This document shows positions 9,650 through 19,464 of a stretch of 41,828 bases of DNA, one piece after another; the stretch's first letter is position 1, and every line of letters begins with the position of its first letter. Under the pieces are notes generated by a model that worked only from the letters and a program-made list of their open reading frames with translations, made no database searches and was not told where the DNA came from. Source of the DNA: Chloroflexota bacterium (GTDB lineage Bacteria; Chloroflexota; Limnocylindria; Limnocylindrales; Limnocylindraceae); contig QWQR01000006.1 of assembly GCA_003670745.1 (NCBI GenBank), positions 1 through 41,828 of the forward strand, given 5' to 3'. Position numbers and translations under genes: made by a program.

Positions 9650-11476
<1,827 letters not shown>

Positions 11477-11537: not shown

Positions 11538-12533
11538 ATGCGAAACCTTCGAAACGCTGCGCTGCTCGCACTCGCCGCCGCACTAACCCTCGCCGCCTGC
11601 TCCCCTTCGGCTTCATCGAGCAGCCCACCATCAATGTCGACATCTGGTGGTGGCGCTACGGGTGCGCGGACCGGCTGCCTCGATGCTTGGCCAGCGGCAG
11701 GGAGCACGAGCACGACTGGCCCGATCCCAGTGCTGGTGAACAGCGACCTCGCCCCCGGCGAGGCGCGACTGATCCTCGGCCTTGTCGACGGTGCCGGCTT
11801 CCCGCTCGGCGATCCTGGCTGGAAGATTGACGCGGCGCTCTACGACCTTGGCGCAGATGGATGTGCGCCGTTCGCCACCTCGCTCGCCATGCCCTTCGCC
11901 TGGTCGATCGAAAAGGTGCGCGGCTTCTTCATTGGCACAACGACCATTCCGGCGGCAACGCGCGAGCTCGGCTTGCTACTCACCGGCAAGAACGCGGCTG
12001 GTGCAGCGGTGCGAGTCTCATTCGCCGCCGCAGTGGCTGCAGCGCCGATGGCACTTCGCCCGGGCGATGCCGCGCCAACCATCGCCACGCCGATCGCCGC
12101 CGCTGACCCACACGGCGCTGCGGGGATCAGCACCGACCCGACGCCGCTCGCGCGCCTATACGGCAGCTCTGCCGCCGAACTACTCGCGGCGAAGCGCCCC
12201 TTCATGATCGTCTTCGCCTCTCCCGCCTTCTGCGTCTCGCAGGCGTGCGGCCCAACGCTCAAAGTAGTCAAAGCCGCTGCAGTGAAACATTCGTCGGTCG
12301 TGATCATTCACGTCGAGCCGTATGTGATGGCGTGGGATGGCCAACGCCCCCTTCCCGTGATGAAGAGCGGACACCTGCAGCCGAATCCAATCGCCGAGGC
12401 GTGGCGCCTCCCCGTTGAGCCATGGATCTTCACGGTCGGAGCTGACGGAGCGATCCTCCGCTCGTATGAGGGAGTTGTATCGCTCGATGAACTGAACGCC
12501 GCGCTCAAAGAGCTCGAGGCGCTCGGAGGCTAG
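11538..12533 (+). CDS. Lipoprotein with C-terminal thioredoxin-like region
   Basis: Lipobox LALAAALTLAAC; C-terminal RPFMIVFASPAFCVSQACGPTLKVVKAA...VEPWIFTVGADGAILRSYEGVVSLDELNAAL. Start at 11538 rather than 11394. Confidence 0.75.
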   Translation: MRNLRNAALLALAAALTLAACSPSASSSSPPSMSTSGGGATGARTGCLDAWPAAGSTSTTGPIPVLVNSDLAPGEARLILGLVDGAGFPLGDPGWKIDAALYDLGADGCAPFATSLAMPFAWSIEKVRGFFIGTTTIPAATRELGLLLTGKNAAGAAVRVSFAAAVAAAPMALRPGDAAPTIATPIAAADPHGAAGISTDPTPLARLYGSSAAELLAAKRPFMIVFASPAFCVSQACGPTLKVVKAAAVKHSSVVIIHVEPYVMAWDGQRPLPVMKSGHLQPNPIAEAWRLPVEPWIFTVGADGAILRSYEGVVSLDELNAALKELEALGG

Positions 12534-13246
12534 CGGCCGGCACTCCCTGGGGCGCCGATCGGCTCCCCCTTCGCGCAGAGCGGGCAGCTCTCGGCCGCAT
12601 ATGAGGCAATGTCGAGCGTCAGCGCGGCGATGAGTGGCAATGGGTCATGCCCTGGCAACTCAATCGCCGTGATCGACGGCGTGCGGTTGGCGAGCACCGC
12701 GGCGGCGATCGGATGCGCCCCGGCCGCGTAGAGCGGTGGAAGCAGCGCCTGCAGCGAACCGCCCGTCGTCAGAATGTCATCGACGAGTAGCACCCGCGCG
12801 CGTGGTGGAATGTGAAAGCCGCGGCGAAACTCTCGTCGCGGCTCGCCGTCGCCGCGTACCTCTTCGGCGAAGATGCCGCGCACGCCGAGCAGTCGACCAA
12901 CCTCGTAGGCGAGGAGCACTCCCCCGGTCGTTGGCCCCACCACCAGATCAATCTCCGTTGCCGTTGCGCGAGCAAGCGCCAGGGCGCGCGCTGCGATGAT
13001 CGCGCAGATCTCCGCCGCCGCCTCGGGGAACTGCAAGAGCGACCACTTCTCTAGGTAGCGATCGCTGTGTCGCCCGCTCTTCAGCAGGTAGTGACCGCGC
13101 TGCAGCGCGCCGGTCGCGAGCAGCAGCCCTTCGACACGACGCGCTGCGAGCGCCTCGTCGCTGGGATCGACTGGACTCGCCGGATACCCGTCGGGGGCGT
13201 GCAGCGGGTCGCGCGGCGGCACGAGTGGTTCGTTGTGGCTGCTCAT
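12530..13246 (-). CDS. pyrE: Orotate phosphoribosyltransferase
   Basis: LLKSGRHSDRYLEKW, VVGPTTGGVLLAYEVGRLL, RREFRRGFHIPPRARVLLVDDILTTGGS (PRPP loop). Confidence 0.92.
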   Translation of the reverse strand: MSSHNEPLVPPRDPLHAPDGYPASPVDPSDEALAARRVEGLLLATGALQRGHYLLKSGRHSDRYLEKWSLLQFPEAAAEICAIIAARALALARATATEIDLVVGPTTGGVLLAYEVGRLLGVRGIFAEEVRGDGEPRREFRRGFHIPPRARVLLVDDILTTGGSLQALLPPLYAAGAHPIAAAVLANRTPSITAIELPGHDPLPLIAALTLDIASYAAESCPLCAKGEPIGAPGSAGR

Positions 13247-14289
13247 GACCTCAGCCTATCGCGCAGCGCGGCACCAACGAGATCGGTGACGCGCGGTGCG
13301 CCACGCGAGGCGGCGGCGCGGCGTGCGGATTCGGCGATTGCACCGGGGAGTCCAGGGTCAGCCCAGAGGGCGCTTCCGACGCTCACCGCCGATGCCCCCG
13401 CGGAGAGGAAGTCGAGCGCGTCGGCCGGTGAGCCGATGCCGCCGCCGCCGATGATCGGCAGCGCGCCAACCTGCGCCGCCTCGGCGACCGCGGCGAGTGC
13501 AAGCGGGCGAATGAGCGGCCCAGAGAGCCGCCCGCTCCCCGCGGCGAGCGCCGCACCGCGACGTGCGCGATCGGGGAGGAATCCGACCGGTGAGCCACTG
13601 ATTGACACGATGTCTGCGCCCGCATCAGCAAGATGGGCGACGAGGCGCGCCACGCTCGTCGCCGTCGGTGAGATCTTGGCGATAAGGGGCAGCTCGGTCG
13701 CCTCACGGGCAGCATCGATGAGCCGCGCCGCCTCATCAAGTGACGACTCAAATGGCGCGCCGTCGAGCGCGTCGCATGGGGCGGTGAGATCTAACTCGTA
13801 GGCGTCAATGCCAAGGGTCGCACCACGCCCTTCGACCTTGCGCATCAGTCGCTTCAGCTCCGCCGTGTCACCCGCTGCGACCGACAGGGCGACGGCGCAC
13901 GCTGTATCGCGCCAGGCGGGCGCGTGGCGCTGGATCACCTCGTCGATCCCCGGATTCTCGCGATCGATCGCATGTAGCAGGCCACCTGGAACCTCGACGA
14001 GTCGTGGCGGCAGTCCCGCGCGACGGGCGGTCAGCGTTGCGGTGCGCACCACAAAGAGTCCAACGTCGCGCAAGTCAATGAGCGTCGCCGCCTCTGCGCC
14101 AAAACCGAGCGGTCCACTCGCCACAACTACCGGTCGCTCGAGACGCAGCGGCGCGCGCGCACCAAGCTCGACCGCAAGGTCGATCGTTGCGGCGTTCAGT
14201 CGCTCAGGTGCTGCTGGTGCGGAGGATTTCGTGCGACCTTCGTTTGATCGCGGCGTTGGGTGCACCTTGGTGCGACGACGCGGCGGCAC
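13243..14289 (-). CDS. Dihydroorotate dehydrogenase-like (class 1B PyrD homologue) with atypical active site
   Basis: Overall PyrD layout (PVVVASGPLGFG, LLHAIDRENPGIDEVI, SGPLIRPLAL, PIIGGGGIGSPADALDFLSAGASAVSVGSALWADP) but DLTAPC in place of N-x-S-C-P-N. GTG start, 1-nt overlap with pyrK-like stop. Confidence 0.8.
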   Translation of the reverse strand: MPPRRRTKVHPTPRSNEGRTKSSAPAAPERLNAATIDLAVELGARAPLRLERPVVVASGPLGFGAEAATLIDLRDVGLFVVRTATLTARRAGLPPRLVEVPGGLLHAIDRENPGIDEVIQRHAPAWRDTACAVALSVAAGDTAELKRLMRKVEGRGATLGIDAYELDLTAPCDALDGAPFESSLDEAARLIDAAREATELPLIAKISPTATSVARLVAHLADAGADIVSISGSPVGFLPDRARRGAALAAGSGRLSGPLIRPLALAAVAEAAQVGALPIIGGGGIGSPADALDFLSAGASAVSVGSALWADPGLPGAIAESARRAAASRGAPRVTDLVGAALRDRLRS

Positions 14290-15161
14290 TACTCGGTCCC
14301 TCCGCTACGAAACTCGCTCATCGGAATCGCCGGACCTTCACGGCAGAGGCGTAGGTCGCCCGAGCGCGCCGGCAGGGTGCAGCCGCCGCAGACGCCACTC
14401 CCGCAGCCGATCTCATGGGTGAGGAGAAGCTGCATCCAGCTACCGCGGTTCGCTCCGCCCTTGGCGCGTGCCCCCGCGCTCGCCGCGACGCGATCCACAC
14501 CACGACGCCCCTGGGCAGCGTCGTAGGCGCCGGCGAGGAGTGCCGCCGATCCCGCTGCGAACGCCTGCTCCGCCCATGACGCGTAGCTCGTGATCAGATC
14601 GGCGGCGACGCCAGCGTGACCGAGGCTGCCGTCTGTAGTCGCAACGACGAGTTCGACCTGCTCTGGAAGGAGGCTCGCTGGCGCAAGATCGTGCGCGCTC
14701 TGCGCCTCTTGGATGAACACCACGGAGCGGCCCGCGGCAACGGCCGATATGGCGAGGAGGCGCAGCCAGGCGAACCCTTCGGTGTCAGAGATGAGCAACA
14801 GGTTCGACCCCTTTGCGTCGAGAGCGATCGGTCGTCCAATCGGGCCGACGAGCGTCAGCGCGTCGCCAACGCGCAACTCGGCGAGCGAATCGCGACCGCC
14901 GTCAGCGCGTGGTTGCAGCGCCACCTCAACGCTGCCGCGCAGTGGATCAACCTTCGTGACTGGTGCAACACGTCGGAGGCGGTAGCCGCCCGCCTCCGCG
15001 CGCACGAGATGCAGTGCATGACCAGGACGAAGGCCCGCAACGAGCGTTGGGGCGCGCAGCTCGAGGGTGGTGCGTCCGGGGGCAAGCTCTCCGATGGCGA
15101 GGATGCTCGCCGCGACGGGCGCAGGGCCCATCGGCGCGTTAAACCTTGGCGCCGTGGTCAC
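14289..15161 (-). CDS. Dihydroorotate dehydrogenase electron transfer subunit-like (PyrK homologue) with atypical FAD/NAD motifs
   Basis: C-terminal [2Fe-2S] ligand set IGCGSGVCGGCTLPARSGDLRLCREGPAI matches PyrK, but SDTEGFAWL replaces GGGxGxPPL and RRVAPV replaces RRPISI. Confidence 0.72.
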   Translation of the reverse strand: MTTAPRFNAPMGPAPVAASILAIGELAPGRTTLELRAPTLVAGLRPGHALHLVRAEAGGYRLRRVAPVTKVDPLRGSVEVALQPRADGGRDSLAELRVGDALTLVGPIGRPIALDAKGSNLLLISDTEGFAWLRLLAISAVAAGRSVVFIQEAQSAHDLAPASLLPEQVELVVATTDGSLGHAGVAADLITSYASWAEQAFAAGSAALLAGAYDAAQGRRGVDRVAASAGARAKGGANRGSWMQLLLTHEIGCGSGVCGGCTLPARSGDLRLCREGPAIPMSEFRSGGTE

Positions 15162-15606
15162 CGGCGACGCCGAGGCCAGCGATGATCGCGCCGGTCGGTC
15201 GCGACTTGAGCCCAGCCGCGCTGCGGAGCGCCGCTTCGATGCGGTCGTACAGATCGGCCGACCCCCAGAGCTCCACGATCTCCGCGGCGCTCACGCGATC
15301 AAGGCTCGAGCGACCGCGCCCCGATGAGGAGATGACACGGAACGAAAGATCGCCGTCGAGGATCAGCTGCGGCGCCTTGGCGCTCCCCGCAAGGATGAGC
15401 GGCGCGACGACGAGGAGGATCGGGCGATGGCTGTTGAGGTAGCGGCGGAGCTGATCCGCGGCGCGCTCTACGGCGGTCAGGCGCTCTGCACCCGCCGCCT
15501 CCGCCGCGTCGGCGGCGCGGCGCGCAAACTCAGGAGAGAGAGTTGAGCGCTTCGGTGCGCCACGCTTTACTGCGCTCTTCTTCGCCACGGGCTTCTTTGC
15601 TGCCAT
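15139..15606 (-). CDS. Hypothetical protein with basic Lys/Ala-rich N-terminus
   Basis: Open frame overlapping pyrK-like start, same strand in the pyr operon; start at MAAKKPVAKKSAVKRGAPKRS (15606). Confidence 0.55.
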   Translation of the reverse strand: MAAKKPVAKKSAVKRGAPKRSTLSPEFARRAADAAEAAGAERLTAVERAADQLRRYLNSHRPILLVVAPLILAGSAKAPQLILDGDLSFRVISSSGRGRSSLDRVSAAEIVELWGSADLYDRIEAALRSAAGLKSRPTGAIIAGLGVAGDHGAKV

Positions 15607-15932
15607 CAGCCGCGGTACTCCAAGTCGCGCGAGAGTCGCTCGCGCAGGAACATGGAGTGGTGTCGCTCGAACATCCACTCGCCGGCACGGTGGCCGAGTG
15701 CGCGTGTCGACTCGTCGGCCTCAAGGCGATCGAGCGCCTCGTAGTTTGGAAGGTCGAAGAGGATCACGTTGTCGAAGTCCCAACCGTGGGCAACGTTGTA
15801 CCAGCCGAGGAACTTGATCCCGAACTTCTCTTCATACGTCTTTACGGTGCGCGGGAAAAGGGTGCGCATAAAGAACTTGAAGAAGGGGTCGCGACCCCGA
15901 CGCACGGAGAAGTAGGTTGCTAGGACTGGCAT
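15606..15932 (-). CDS. Hypothetical protein (small, possibly ferredoxin-like/dimeric alpha-beta barrel)
   Basis: 108 aa MPVLATYFSVRRGRDPFFKFFMRTLFPRTVKTYEEKFGIKFLGWYNVAHGWDFDNVILFDLPNYEALDRLEAD...; tightly packed between neighbours with 1-nt overlaps. Confidence 0.65.
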   Translation of the reverse strand: MPVLATYFSVRRGRDPFFKFFMRTLFPRTVKTYEEKFGIKFLGWYNVAHGWDFDNVILFDLPNYEALDRLEADESTRALGHRAGEWMFERHHSMFLRERLSRDLEYRG

Positions 15933-16312
15933 CAGCGGGATTCTCCCACGTCATCGCCGCTCGTGGGTGGCCGTGCGGCAGCGGCGCGCGCCTCATCCTC
16001 GAGCTCGCCGACCGTCTTGCTTCGGCCGCTCAGCGGGGCGCGGCGTCCGCGCCGATCGGCCGCCACGAGGCGCAAGAGGAAGATCGACGTCTGGCCGACG
16101 AGCAGCAGCAGCACGACGACCGCGATGAGGAGGATCGTCGCGATCGTGGCCCCCCAGTTCAGCACCGCAGAGAGCGGCGCCAAGATGATTACGACCACGA
16201 GGGCCACCGCCTGGATCCAGAAGCAGCCGAGCCCTGGACCGCGATCGGCGTTCAGTGGCGCACCCTTGTACTCGGGTGGCTGCGGCGTAGCGGAGGCGGG
16301 CGGAAGACTCAT
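15932..16312 (-). CDS. Hypothetical small membrane protein
   Basis: Two hydrophobic segments (FWIQAVALVVVIILAPLSAVLNW; TILLIAVVVLLLLVGQTSIFLL), same strand as the pyr operon. Confidence 0.6.
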   Translation of the reverse strand: MSLPPASATPQPPEYKGAPLNADRGPGLGCFWIQAVALVVVIILAPLSAVLNWGATIATILLIAVVVLLLLVGQTSIFLLRLVAADRRGRRAPLSGRSKTVGELEDEARAAAARPPTSGDDVGESR

Positions 16313-16409: not shown

Positions 16410-17840
16410 TTAACGCTCTGGCGCCTCCCAGACGACCACGCCGCTCACAAGCGTCAGGCGCACGACGCCGGGGAGCGCGCGACCGATCAGCGGCGTGTTG
16501 AGGCTCTTCCCGGCGAGTGTCGCGCGACTCGGCGTCCACGTTGCTGCAGCAGCGATCACGACGAGATCGGCGGGGGCGCCCACGCTGATCCCGCGCGACG
16601 CATGTGCTGCGGGGAGCAGCGATGCTGGCCCCGTCACAAAGGAACGCGCGATCGTGGCGAGCGAAAGTTCACCAGCAGCGCGAGCCGCAAGCGCAACGCT
16701 CAGCGCCGTCTCAATCCCCGCGATCCCGTTCGCTGCGAGGCCGAACTCCATCTCCTTGCGTTCGCGTGAGTGCGGCGCATGATCGGTGGCGATCGCGAGC
16801 GCCGTACCGTCGCGTAGTGCGGCACGGCAGGCTGCGGCGTCGTCGGCGCCGCGCAGTGGCGGGCAGACGCGTACGTTGCTGTCGAATGCCTCTGGCGTGG
16901 GGTCGAGCGCTGAAGATTGATCCGCAGAGCGGTCCGACGAGCCATGCGCCACCAGCTCCCAGGCCCAGCGGCGATCTCCGGCAATCCAACGGTCGGTGAA
17001 GGCGATGTGGTGCGGCGTCACGTCGCAACTCACGGGCAGCCCTTCGGCGCGTGCTGAACGCACAAGGTCGAGCGCCGCGGCGGTCGAGAGATGCGTCAGG
17101 TGGAGCCGAACGCGCGGTTCGGTGGCGAGCGCCTCGCGCAGCAACGCGATATCGCGCGCGACCGCCTCGATCTCGCCGGCGGAGGGCCACGGTCGCATCC
17201 CGAGGCGCGTCGCAACGGCGCCATCGGCCGCCTCGCCACCTGCGGTGAGGTGTGGCGCCTCAGCGTGTTCAATGACCGGCAGGCCGAGGGCGCCTGCGCC
17301 GATCAGTGCGGCGCGAAAGAGCGCCGCATCAGCGATGGGGCTCCCGTCATCAGAGAAGCCAATCGCGCCGGCGGCGGCAAGGTTGGCGAGCGGCGCGAGT
17401 GCCGTGCCGGCACGACCGCGCGTTGCGGCGCCGATCGGCAGCAGCCGCACCCCGCGACGTGCACCATCAACGCGCACCATCGAGGCAAGGATCTCGGCGC
17501 TGTCGGCGGCGGGCTCGCTGTTCGGCATGAGGCAGACCGTGCCGTATCCACCGTGCGCGGCGGCGCGCTCGCCGCTCGCCGCATCTTCTGAGGCGGCCGC
17601 CCCCGGCTGACGGAAGTGCGCATGGAGATCGATGAGCGCTGGAAGGAGCAGGTCGGTTGGATCGCCGAGGTCTGGTTCGCCGCCAGCACGGAATCGTGCA
17701 GCGGCAGCCTCGGCACCATCACGCCAGTCAACGCGTTCAATGCGCCCATCGCGCAGCGCAACGTTCGCTGCGCCCGCGAGCTCCGCGACCGGATCAACAA
17801 CCCAAAGCGTTCCGAGATCCCGCGTCACCCCGTGGCTCAT
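16410..17840 (-). CDS. pyrC: Dihydroorotase
   Basis: LIDLHAHFRQPG, GTVCLMPNSEP, AIGFSDDGSP, LHLTHLSTAAAL, IATDHAPHSRERKEMEFGLAANGIAGIETAL; overlaps pyrB by 4 nt. Confidence 0.92.
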   Translation of the reverse strand: MSHGVTRDLGTLWVVDPVAELAGAANVALRDGRIERVDWRDGAEAAAARFRAGGEPDLGDPTDLLLPALIDLHAHFRQPGAAASEDAASGERAAAHGGYGTVCLMPNSEPAADSAEILASMVRVDGARRGVRLLPIGAATRGRAGTALAPLANLAAAGAIGFSDDGSPIADAALFRAALIGAGALGLPVIEHAEAPHLTAGGEAADGAVATRLGMRPWPSAGEIEAVARDIALLREALATEPRVRLHLTHLSTAAALDLVRSARAEGLPVSCDVTPHHIAFTDRWIAGDRRWAWELVAHGSSDRSADQSSALDPTPEAFDSNVRVCPPLRGADDAAACRAALRDGTALAIATDHAPHSRERKEMEFGLAANGIAGIETALSVALAARAAGELSLATIARSFVTGPASLLPAAHASRGISVGAPADLVVIAAAATWTPSRATLAGKSLNTPLIGRALPGVVRLTLVSGVVVWEAPER

Positions 17841-18865
17841 GGCAGCTCACCGCGCGCTGCAAGCGACAGGACGGCCATGCGCATCGGCACCCCAGCCGCC
17901 ACCTGATCGAGCACGAGGCTGCGTTGCCCGTCGGCAACATCGGCGTCGATCTCGACCCCTTCGTTCATTGGGCCTGGGTGCATCACGAGGCAGCCAGACG
18001 CCGCCCGCGCCGCGAGTCGCTCTTCGGTCAGCCCCCAATCGCGGCGATACCCCTCGAGTGAATCAATCTCGCCGCCGCTCAAGCGCTCCCGTTGAATGCG
18101 GAGCGCCATGGCGGCGTCCACGCCATCAAGCGCCGCGTCGATCGATGCGACGAGCTGCGCGCTGCCAGCGGCGTCGCCGCTGCGCGCTCGCGCCTCGCGT
18201 GTCAGCGCGTCGGCAAGGTCCGCAAAGCCGGCGACGAGGTTTGCTGGCCCCGCAAGACGCACTGAGGCGCCGGCGGCGATCAGGGTGTGCAGGTTTGAGC
18301 GCACGACGCGGCTGTGGAGCAGGTCGCCGATGATAGCGATTGATCGACCACGCAGTGACCCGTCGGCGCCGCCGATGCGCGCGCTGAGCACCGAGAGGTC
18401 GAGGAGCGCCTGCGTCGGATGGGCGTGCCACCCATCACCAGCGTTGATCACGCTCCCATCGAATGCGCGTGCCGCAAGCCACGGCGCGCCAGAGCGCTCG
18501 TGGCGCAACACCACCACATCTGCGCCCAGCGCGCGCAAAGTGCGCAGCGTGTCAACGAGCGACTCCCCCTTGCCGACCGACGAGGTTCCAACGTCGAACG
18601 AGAGCAGCTCGGCGCCAAGCGCACGTGCGGCGATCTCAAAGGAGAGGCGCGTGCGTGTCGACGCCTCGTAGAAGAGGGTGGCGACGATCGTGCCGCGCAG
18701 CTCGTCGCTACGGCGCTCGGGGGTCGCGAGGATCGCGCGCATCTGCCCAGCCACGTCGAGAAGCCTGCGGAGTTGACCCCACTCAAGCCCCGCAACGTCG
18801 AGCAGGTGGCGGTGATCGGATGGCGCGCCTGCGGCGCGCGAGCGTGGAGCTTCGTTGGGCGTCAT
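17837..18865 (-). CDS. pyrB: Aspartate carbamoyltransferase catalytic subunit
   Basis: LFYEASTRTRLSFEIAARALGAELLSF, DGWHAHPTQALLDL, IAIIGDLLHSRVVRSNLH. Confidence 0.94.
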   Translation of the reverse strand: MTPNEAPRSRAAGAPSDHRHLLDVAGLEWGQLRRLLDVAGQMRAILATPERRSDELRGTIVATLFYEASTRTRLSFEIAARALGAELLSFDVGTSSVGKGESLVDTLRTLRALGADVVVLRHERSGAPWLAARAFDGSVINAGDGWHAHPTQALLDLSVLSARIGGADGSLRGRSIAIIGDLLHSRVVRSNLHTLIAAGASVRLAGPANLVAGFADLADALTREARARSGDAAGSAQLVASIDAALDGVDAAMALRIQRERLSGGEIDSLEGYRRDWGLTEERLAARAASGCLVMHPGPMNEGVEIDADVADGQRSLVLDQVAAGVPMRMAVLSLAARGELP

Positions 18866-18888: not shown

Positions 18889-19464
18889 TCAGCCCTTCGC
18901 CTTCTTCTCTGCCGCCTCATTCGCGGCGAGGTGCTCCGCAAGCAGTTCGACCTTGACGAGATCCTCGCTATCGATCTCCTTCACGCAGACACGAACGACC
19001 TCTTCGCTCGTTGTTGGAATATTTTTTCCAACGTGGTCGGCGCGAATCGGCAACTCGCGGTGCCCGCGATCGATGAGGGCCACGAGACGGATCGCCTTCG
19101 GTCGACCGTAGTCAATCAGGGCGTCGAGCGCCGCGCGGATCGTTCGACCGGTGTAGAGCACGTCGTCGACGAGGATCACCGTCTTTCCGGTCACGTCGCC
19201 AGGGATGCTCGTCCCCTTGTGGACTGGCGCGACGGAGATGGTGGTCAGGTCGTCACGGTAGAAGCTGATGTCGAGGGTGCCGAATGGAACGTCGACGCCC
19301 TCGTGCTCCTTGATCGCGTCGGCAACGACGCGTGCCAGCGGTACGCCGCGGCGCTGGATCCCGACGACGATCAGGTCGGCGGTCCCCTCCTTCTCGACGA
19401 TCTCATGCGAGATGCGGGTAAGGGCTCGGCGGATCTCCTCCGCGTTCATCACCTGTCGGGCCAT
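18889..19464 (-). CDS. pyrR: PyrR bifunctional pyr operon regulator / uracil phosphoribosyltransferase
   Basis: [58 protein letters not shown]. Confidence 0.93.

Follow-up and report, generated by a model that had tools for sequence, protein, structure and literature searches.

A PyrD–PyrK-like pair with a replaced orotate pocket persists in the pyr operon of freshwater Chloroflexota that carry a second dihydroorotate dehydrogenase-type gene

The pyr operon in the window (the whole 41,828-nucleotide stretch that was analysed) encodes a PyrD-like protein in which the orotate-contacting and catalytic residues of class 1B dihydroorotate dehydrogenase (DHODH) are replaced, together with a PyrK-like protein whose NAD motifs are also altered; the source genome carries a second DHODH-type gene, here called DH2. 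Our main reading of these sequences, to which we assign a probability of roughly 0.7, is that the pair no longer acts as a DHODH or reduces NAD, that DH2 would make orotate in its place, and that the pair is kept for another, probably redox, role. Domain-based annotation would name these proteins dihydroorotate dehydrogenase and credit this step of the pathway to a gene that does not perform it, if our reading holds.

All genes of the operon lie on the minus strand, in the order pyrR–pyrB–pyrC–x3–x1–x2–pyrK-like–pyrD-like–pyrE. The genes pyrR (18889..19464), pyrB (aspartate carbamoyltransferase; 17837..18865) and pyrC (dihydroorotase; 16410..17840, above the TIGR00857 cut-off) are followed by x3 (15932..16312), which has a likely membrane stretch, x1 (15606..15932) and x2 (15139..15678), the last in a homologous position throughout the order. 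The 108-aa x1 protein is strikingly conserved in the pyr operon across the order, and Pfam and NCBIfam searches gave no match to it; x1–x3 were rejected as a hint to altered pairs, since they also lie upstream of canonical pyrK–pyrD. The pyrK-like gene (14289..15161), with a match to Pfam DHODB_Fe-S_bind, shares one base of its stop with the GTG start of the pyrD-like gene (13243..14289; 348 aa), whose own stop overlaps the ATG of pyrE (orotate phosphoribosyltransferase; 12530..13246; 143 bits with TIGR01367, cut-off 150) by four bases.

The closest solved relatives of the PyrD-like protein are the PyrD chains of Lactococcus lactis DHODB (5ue9/1ep1, E ~1e-40), whose residue numbers are followed here; the near-ungapped alignment and the overlapping genes uphold the class 1B kinship and operon position given in a preliminary description of this DNA. 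Lys48 is replaced by arginine (Arg82, in FVVRTAT; 14044..14046), MLNAIGLQNPG by LLHAIDRENPG (N72H, L76R and Q77E; 13948..13980), NISCPN by DLTAPC (N132D, C135A at the catalytic cysteine, and N137C; 13774..13791) and MINT by ISGS (N197G and T198S; 13591..13602). The catalytic and orotate-contacting roles of Lys48, Asn72, Asn132, Cys135, Asn137 and Asn197 are established knowledge of the family. That description had reported the loss of essentially every such residue through four motif replacements; all four are confirmed by the alignment and recur in every orthologue read from genus g1 (Ca. Limnocylindrus/Aquidulcis, a freshwater Chloroflexota genus), with two refinements: T198S is conservative, and the loop at 135–137 is not fixed within the genus. 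The whole protein was checked for the canonical motifs at other places, and none is present. The FMN side is intact, as had been stated, with the Lys170-type FMN lysine and the Ser-Gly-Pro, GGGG and G[ST]A motifs kept. The protein scores above the cut-off of Pfam DHO_dh (120 versus 27 bits) but below those of the class 1 models TIGR01037 (165 versus 270) and NF005574 (191 versus 269), and its predicted structure is a barrel (pLDDT 86) with L. lactis DHODB as best solved match (5ue9_A, TM 0.88 on the target).

The PyrK-like protein retains all four [2Fe-2S] cysteines, invariant in ten sequences of the genus, whereas its NAD loop reads SDTEGF in place of GGGxG and its CGP motif has become AAG. 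Judged from these motifs, the PyrK NAD site is lost together with the PyrD pocket, a change that, like the recurrence in other genera and another phylum described below, goes beyond the preliminary description. The pair resembles L. lactis DHODB (PDB 1EP1-1EP3, 5UE9) in operon position, predicted fold, FMN motifs and the four PyrK cysteines, but differs from it at Lys48, Asn72, Asn132, Cys135, Asn137 and Asn197 and in the absence of the PyrK NAD loop and CGP.

Related genomes and named records (Ca. Aquidulcis, Ca. Limnocylindrus) assign the window to g1. Within this genus, the pocket replacements are identical in every orthologue read, at the positions covered: R48 (14 rows), H72 (15 rows), D132 and S196-G197-S198 (16 rows each) and T134 are fixed, as are L76R and Q77E (14 to 16 rows). 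The old catalytic loop, by contrast, varies at 135–137 (A/V/S, P/S and C/S/A), which argues against new catalysis by way of this loop. Median dN/dS values (Nei-Gojobori; pairs with dS 0.1–1.5) are 0.18 for the PyrD-like protein (0.09–0.11 in close pairs), 0.20 for the PyrK-like protein, 0.13 for PyrE and 0.09 for DH2. By this measure purifying selection maintains the pair, and the view that its changes are not random decay stands. As pyrF is present in 17 of the 19 g1 genomes, orotate is still needed.

A second DHODH in the genome had been predicted, and there is one further PF01180 protein in the source genome, DH2 (G000:C15:12406-13320). It keeps the full orotate asparagine set and the catalytic cysteine (N94, N153, C156, N158 and N211) in a DHODH-type NxSCxN motif rather than the PreA-type NFSCPH, and has an insertion of about 18 residues upstream of LNAFG. 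It also carries arginine at the Lys48 position, which counts against it as the orotate maker; Lys48 is needed in L. lactis DHODB, to go by the title of Combe 2006 as cited in PMC8097209. DH2 falls short of the cut-offs of all DHODH class models tried, including those for class 1B (TIGR01037, 144 versus 270), class 1A (NF002702, 67 versus 301) and class 2 (TIGR01036, 32 versus 200), and its structural model is weak (pLDDT 70), so that its fold matches carry little weight. Fragments counted, it is found in 16 of 19 g1 genomes; the three others are 67–90% complete and include G014, at 90%.

The gene neighbours of DH2 in several lineages (pyrE, dihydroorotase and cytidine deaminase) indicate a place in pyrimidine metabolism. 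Cytidine deaminase follows it at nearly every g1 locus read (the exception is G009), pyrE follows it in g24 and also in g123, a distant genus, and in G098 a dihydroorotase does so. The DH2–pyrE cluster of g24 (L205, L214, L215) lies apart from pyrK–pyrD, and a dihydroorotase or allantoinase-type gene is near it in G097 and G098. A PyrK Fe-S domain was looked for in the three g123 genomes and none was found, all three carry pyrF, and in one of them (G343) DH2 is the sole PF01180 protein; these genomes are metagenome-assembled and 89–93% complete, so such absences are not proof. We infer that DH2 is a PyrK-independent DHODH; it would belong to an unassigned group of DHODH-like proteins that apparently work without PyrK.

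A survey of 126 genomes from the order places DH2 in genera g1, g11, g16 and g24 and in the single species G102 and G111. The PyrK NAD loop is altered in each of the four genera, and their PyrD proteins change by degrees: g11 shows K48R only; g16 shows K48R with Asn72 lost, Asn137 usually lost and INT kept; and in g24 and g1 Asn132 and INT are lost too. Scores with TIGR01037, for one protein each, drop roughly in step (canonical 325, g16 275, g11 262, g24 214 and the window protein 165). In the 69 other genomes read, the operon PyrD is canonical in all but G029 (K48R and N72S), which lacks DH2. A genus-level Fisher test of DH2 against the altered pair, counted by hand and ignoring kinship, gave p = 0.001. 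Against replacement by DH2 stand G102 and G111, with a canonical operon pair despite DH2, as well as G029 and G014.

The PyrD tree groups the altered pairs together (support 100/99), but a single origin was not adopted: RpoB rejects g1, g24 and g16 as one clade (AU 8e-10). When pocket columns are removed from the PyrD tree, g24 may join the canonical g6 (p 0.35); the grouping may reflect shared ancestry, transfer, convergence or long-branch attraction. A class 2 pyrD was also set aside as the replacement in Limnocylindria: the PF01180 proteins of about 405 aa from g16, G019 and G024 read NFSCPH and are, by motif only, PreA-like. Two further observations concern this family. In G031, G040 and G102 (L061, L022, L190, L191) there is a second, separate PyrD–PyrK-like pair with NxSCPN intact and a different PyrK loop (LGRGIG), and G277 (L253:5389-6873) encodes a divergent, class 2-looking DHO_dh protein in which GLVCPN and SLSG replace the usual motifs.

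The altered-pair pattern recurs, independently as far as these sequences tell, in Nocardioides (Actinomycetota), beside a class 2 pyrD. All 12 loci (L104-L112, L114, L115, L117) have class 2 pyrD upstream, then pyrK-like and altered pyrD-like genes, the class 2 placement being resolved over the full gene at nine; pyrF lies downstream at 11, and the remaining locus is a short contig. Family cut-offs are exceeded by the L115 class 2 protein and the L105 pyrF product. The PyrD-like motifs read K48R, N[VL]GAPD and GNA, and the three PyrK-like proteins aligned (L105, L106, L108) keep the four cysteines without GGGxG and CGP. Shared with the Chloroflexota pair are K48R, the loss of the catalytic cysteine, the altered PyrK NAD site, the kept cysteines and the presence of another DHODH; Nocardioides differs in keeping Asn72 and Asn132, in having a class 2 (quinone) partner DHODH and in its position before pyrF. 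Actinomycetota were sampled unevenly, because the pattern scan used peptides of this family.

On our main reading, the pair would descend from an NAD-dependent class 1B DHODH and would have lost both dihydroorotate oxidation and NAD reduction, orotate being made instead by the stand-alone, class-1-like DH2. The FMN and [2Fe-2S] motifs are retained and the NAD site is gone, and the old substrate pocket now holds a fixed new polar set (R48, H72, R76, E77, D132, T134 and S196-G-S198). What the sequences show directly is the replacements and how well they are conserved, the DH2 gene with its neighbours, and the recurrence; the lost activity, the binding of cofactors, the function of DH2 and the new role of the pair are inferred. 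New chemistry or a pseudoenzyme, with orotate from another DHODH, had already been suggested; this fits the evidence, and sequence cannot choose between a new substrate and a scaffold. Our preference is a redox complex with a redirected function, a scaffold or regulator being nearly as probable. The likeliest role, though held at somewhat under even odds, is that of an electron-transfer complex with FMN and [2Fe-2S] that acts on a different ligand and exchanges electrons with a one-electron protein partner.

Slightly less probable is that the pair is a non-catalytic scaffold or regulator of pyr-operon enzymes or of DH2, with cofactor motifs needed only for folding of the heterotetramer. The variable old catalytic loop and the retention of overlapping genes inside the operon would suit it, as would the mutual dependence, in stability and cofactors, of PyrD and PyrK in L. 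lactis (PMC8097209). There are known cases of dead paralogues activating a partner: prozyme and trypanosomatid deoxyhypusine synthase (DHS) (PMC5201418, PMC3663545) likewise set a conserved, apparently inactive homologue alongside an active one. In g123, however, DH2 would work without any PyrK partner, and at least seven pocket positions are fixed to new residues, several of them charged.

That the pair is still a DHODH with an unusual mechanism, and DH2 does another job such as dihydropyrimidine oxidation, seems improbable. The pair does stay adjacent to pyrE, DH2 does adjoin cytidine deaminase in g1, and DHODH relatives with other activity do occur in fungi, where they can be dihydrouracil oxidases (PMC10395836); yet the orotate asparagines, cysteine base and NAD site of the pair are all gone, while DH2 has NxSCxN, lies beside pyrE in two lineages and has no competitor in G343. 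The fungal enzymes resemble our pair as DHODH-family flavoproteins apparently devoid of DHODH activity, but are class 1A-like, keep the catalytic cysteine and have no PyrK. Least credible is relaxed decay in a genome-reduced, possibly hypermutator family, the Limnocylindraceae (PMC13212565), with overlapping frames persisting only through translational coupling to pyrE, given the low dN/dS, the fixed new residues, the invariant cysteines and the similar outcome in the larger-genome genera g16 and g24 and in Nocardioides.

A literature search, with most subscription papers outside its scope, found no altered PyrD/PyrK pair of this kind. In at least two phyla a two-subunit redox enzyme would have been replaced in its pathway while staying in its operon, and the role of the leftover complex is a directly testable question. 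It is a rather unlikely extension that PyrD–PyrK pairs without DHODH chemistry make up a flavo-iron-sulphur complex that recurs in Chloroflexota and Actinomycetota where another DHODH took over, and that these pairs share one new function linked to pyrimidine operons. Elsewhere in the window, a 608-aa ORF (9650-11476, minus strand) looks, by eye, like haem A synthase fused to protohaem farnesyltransferase.
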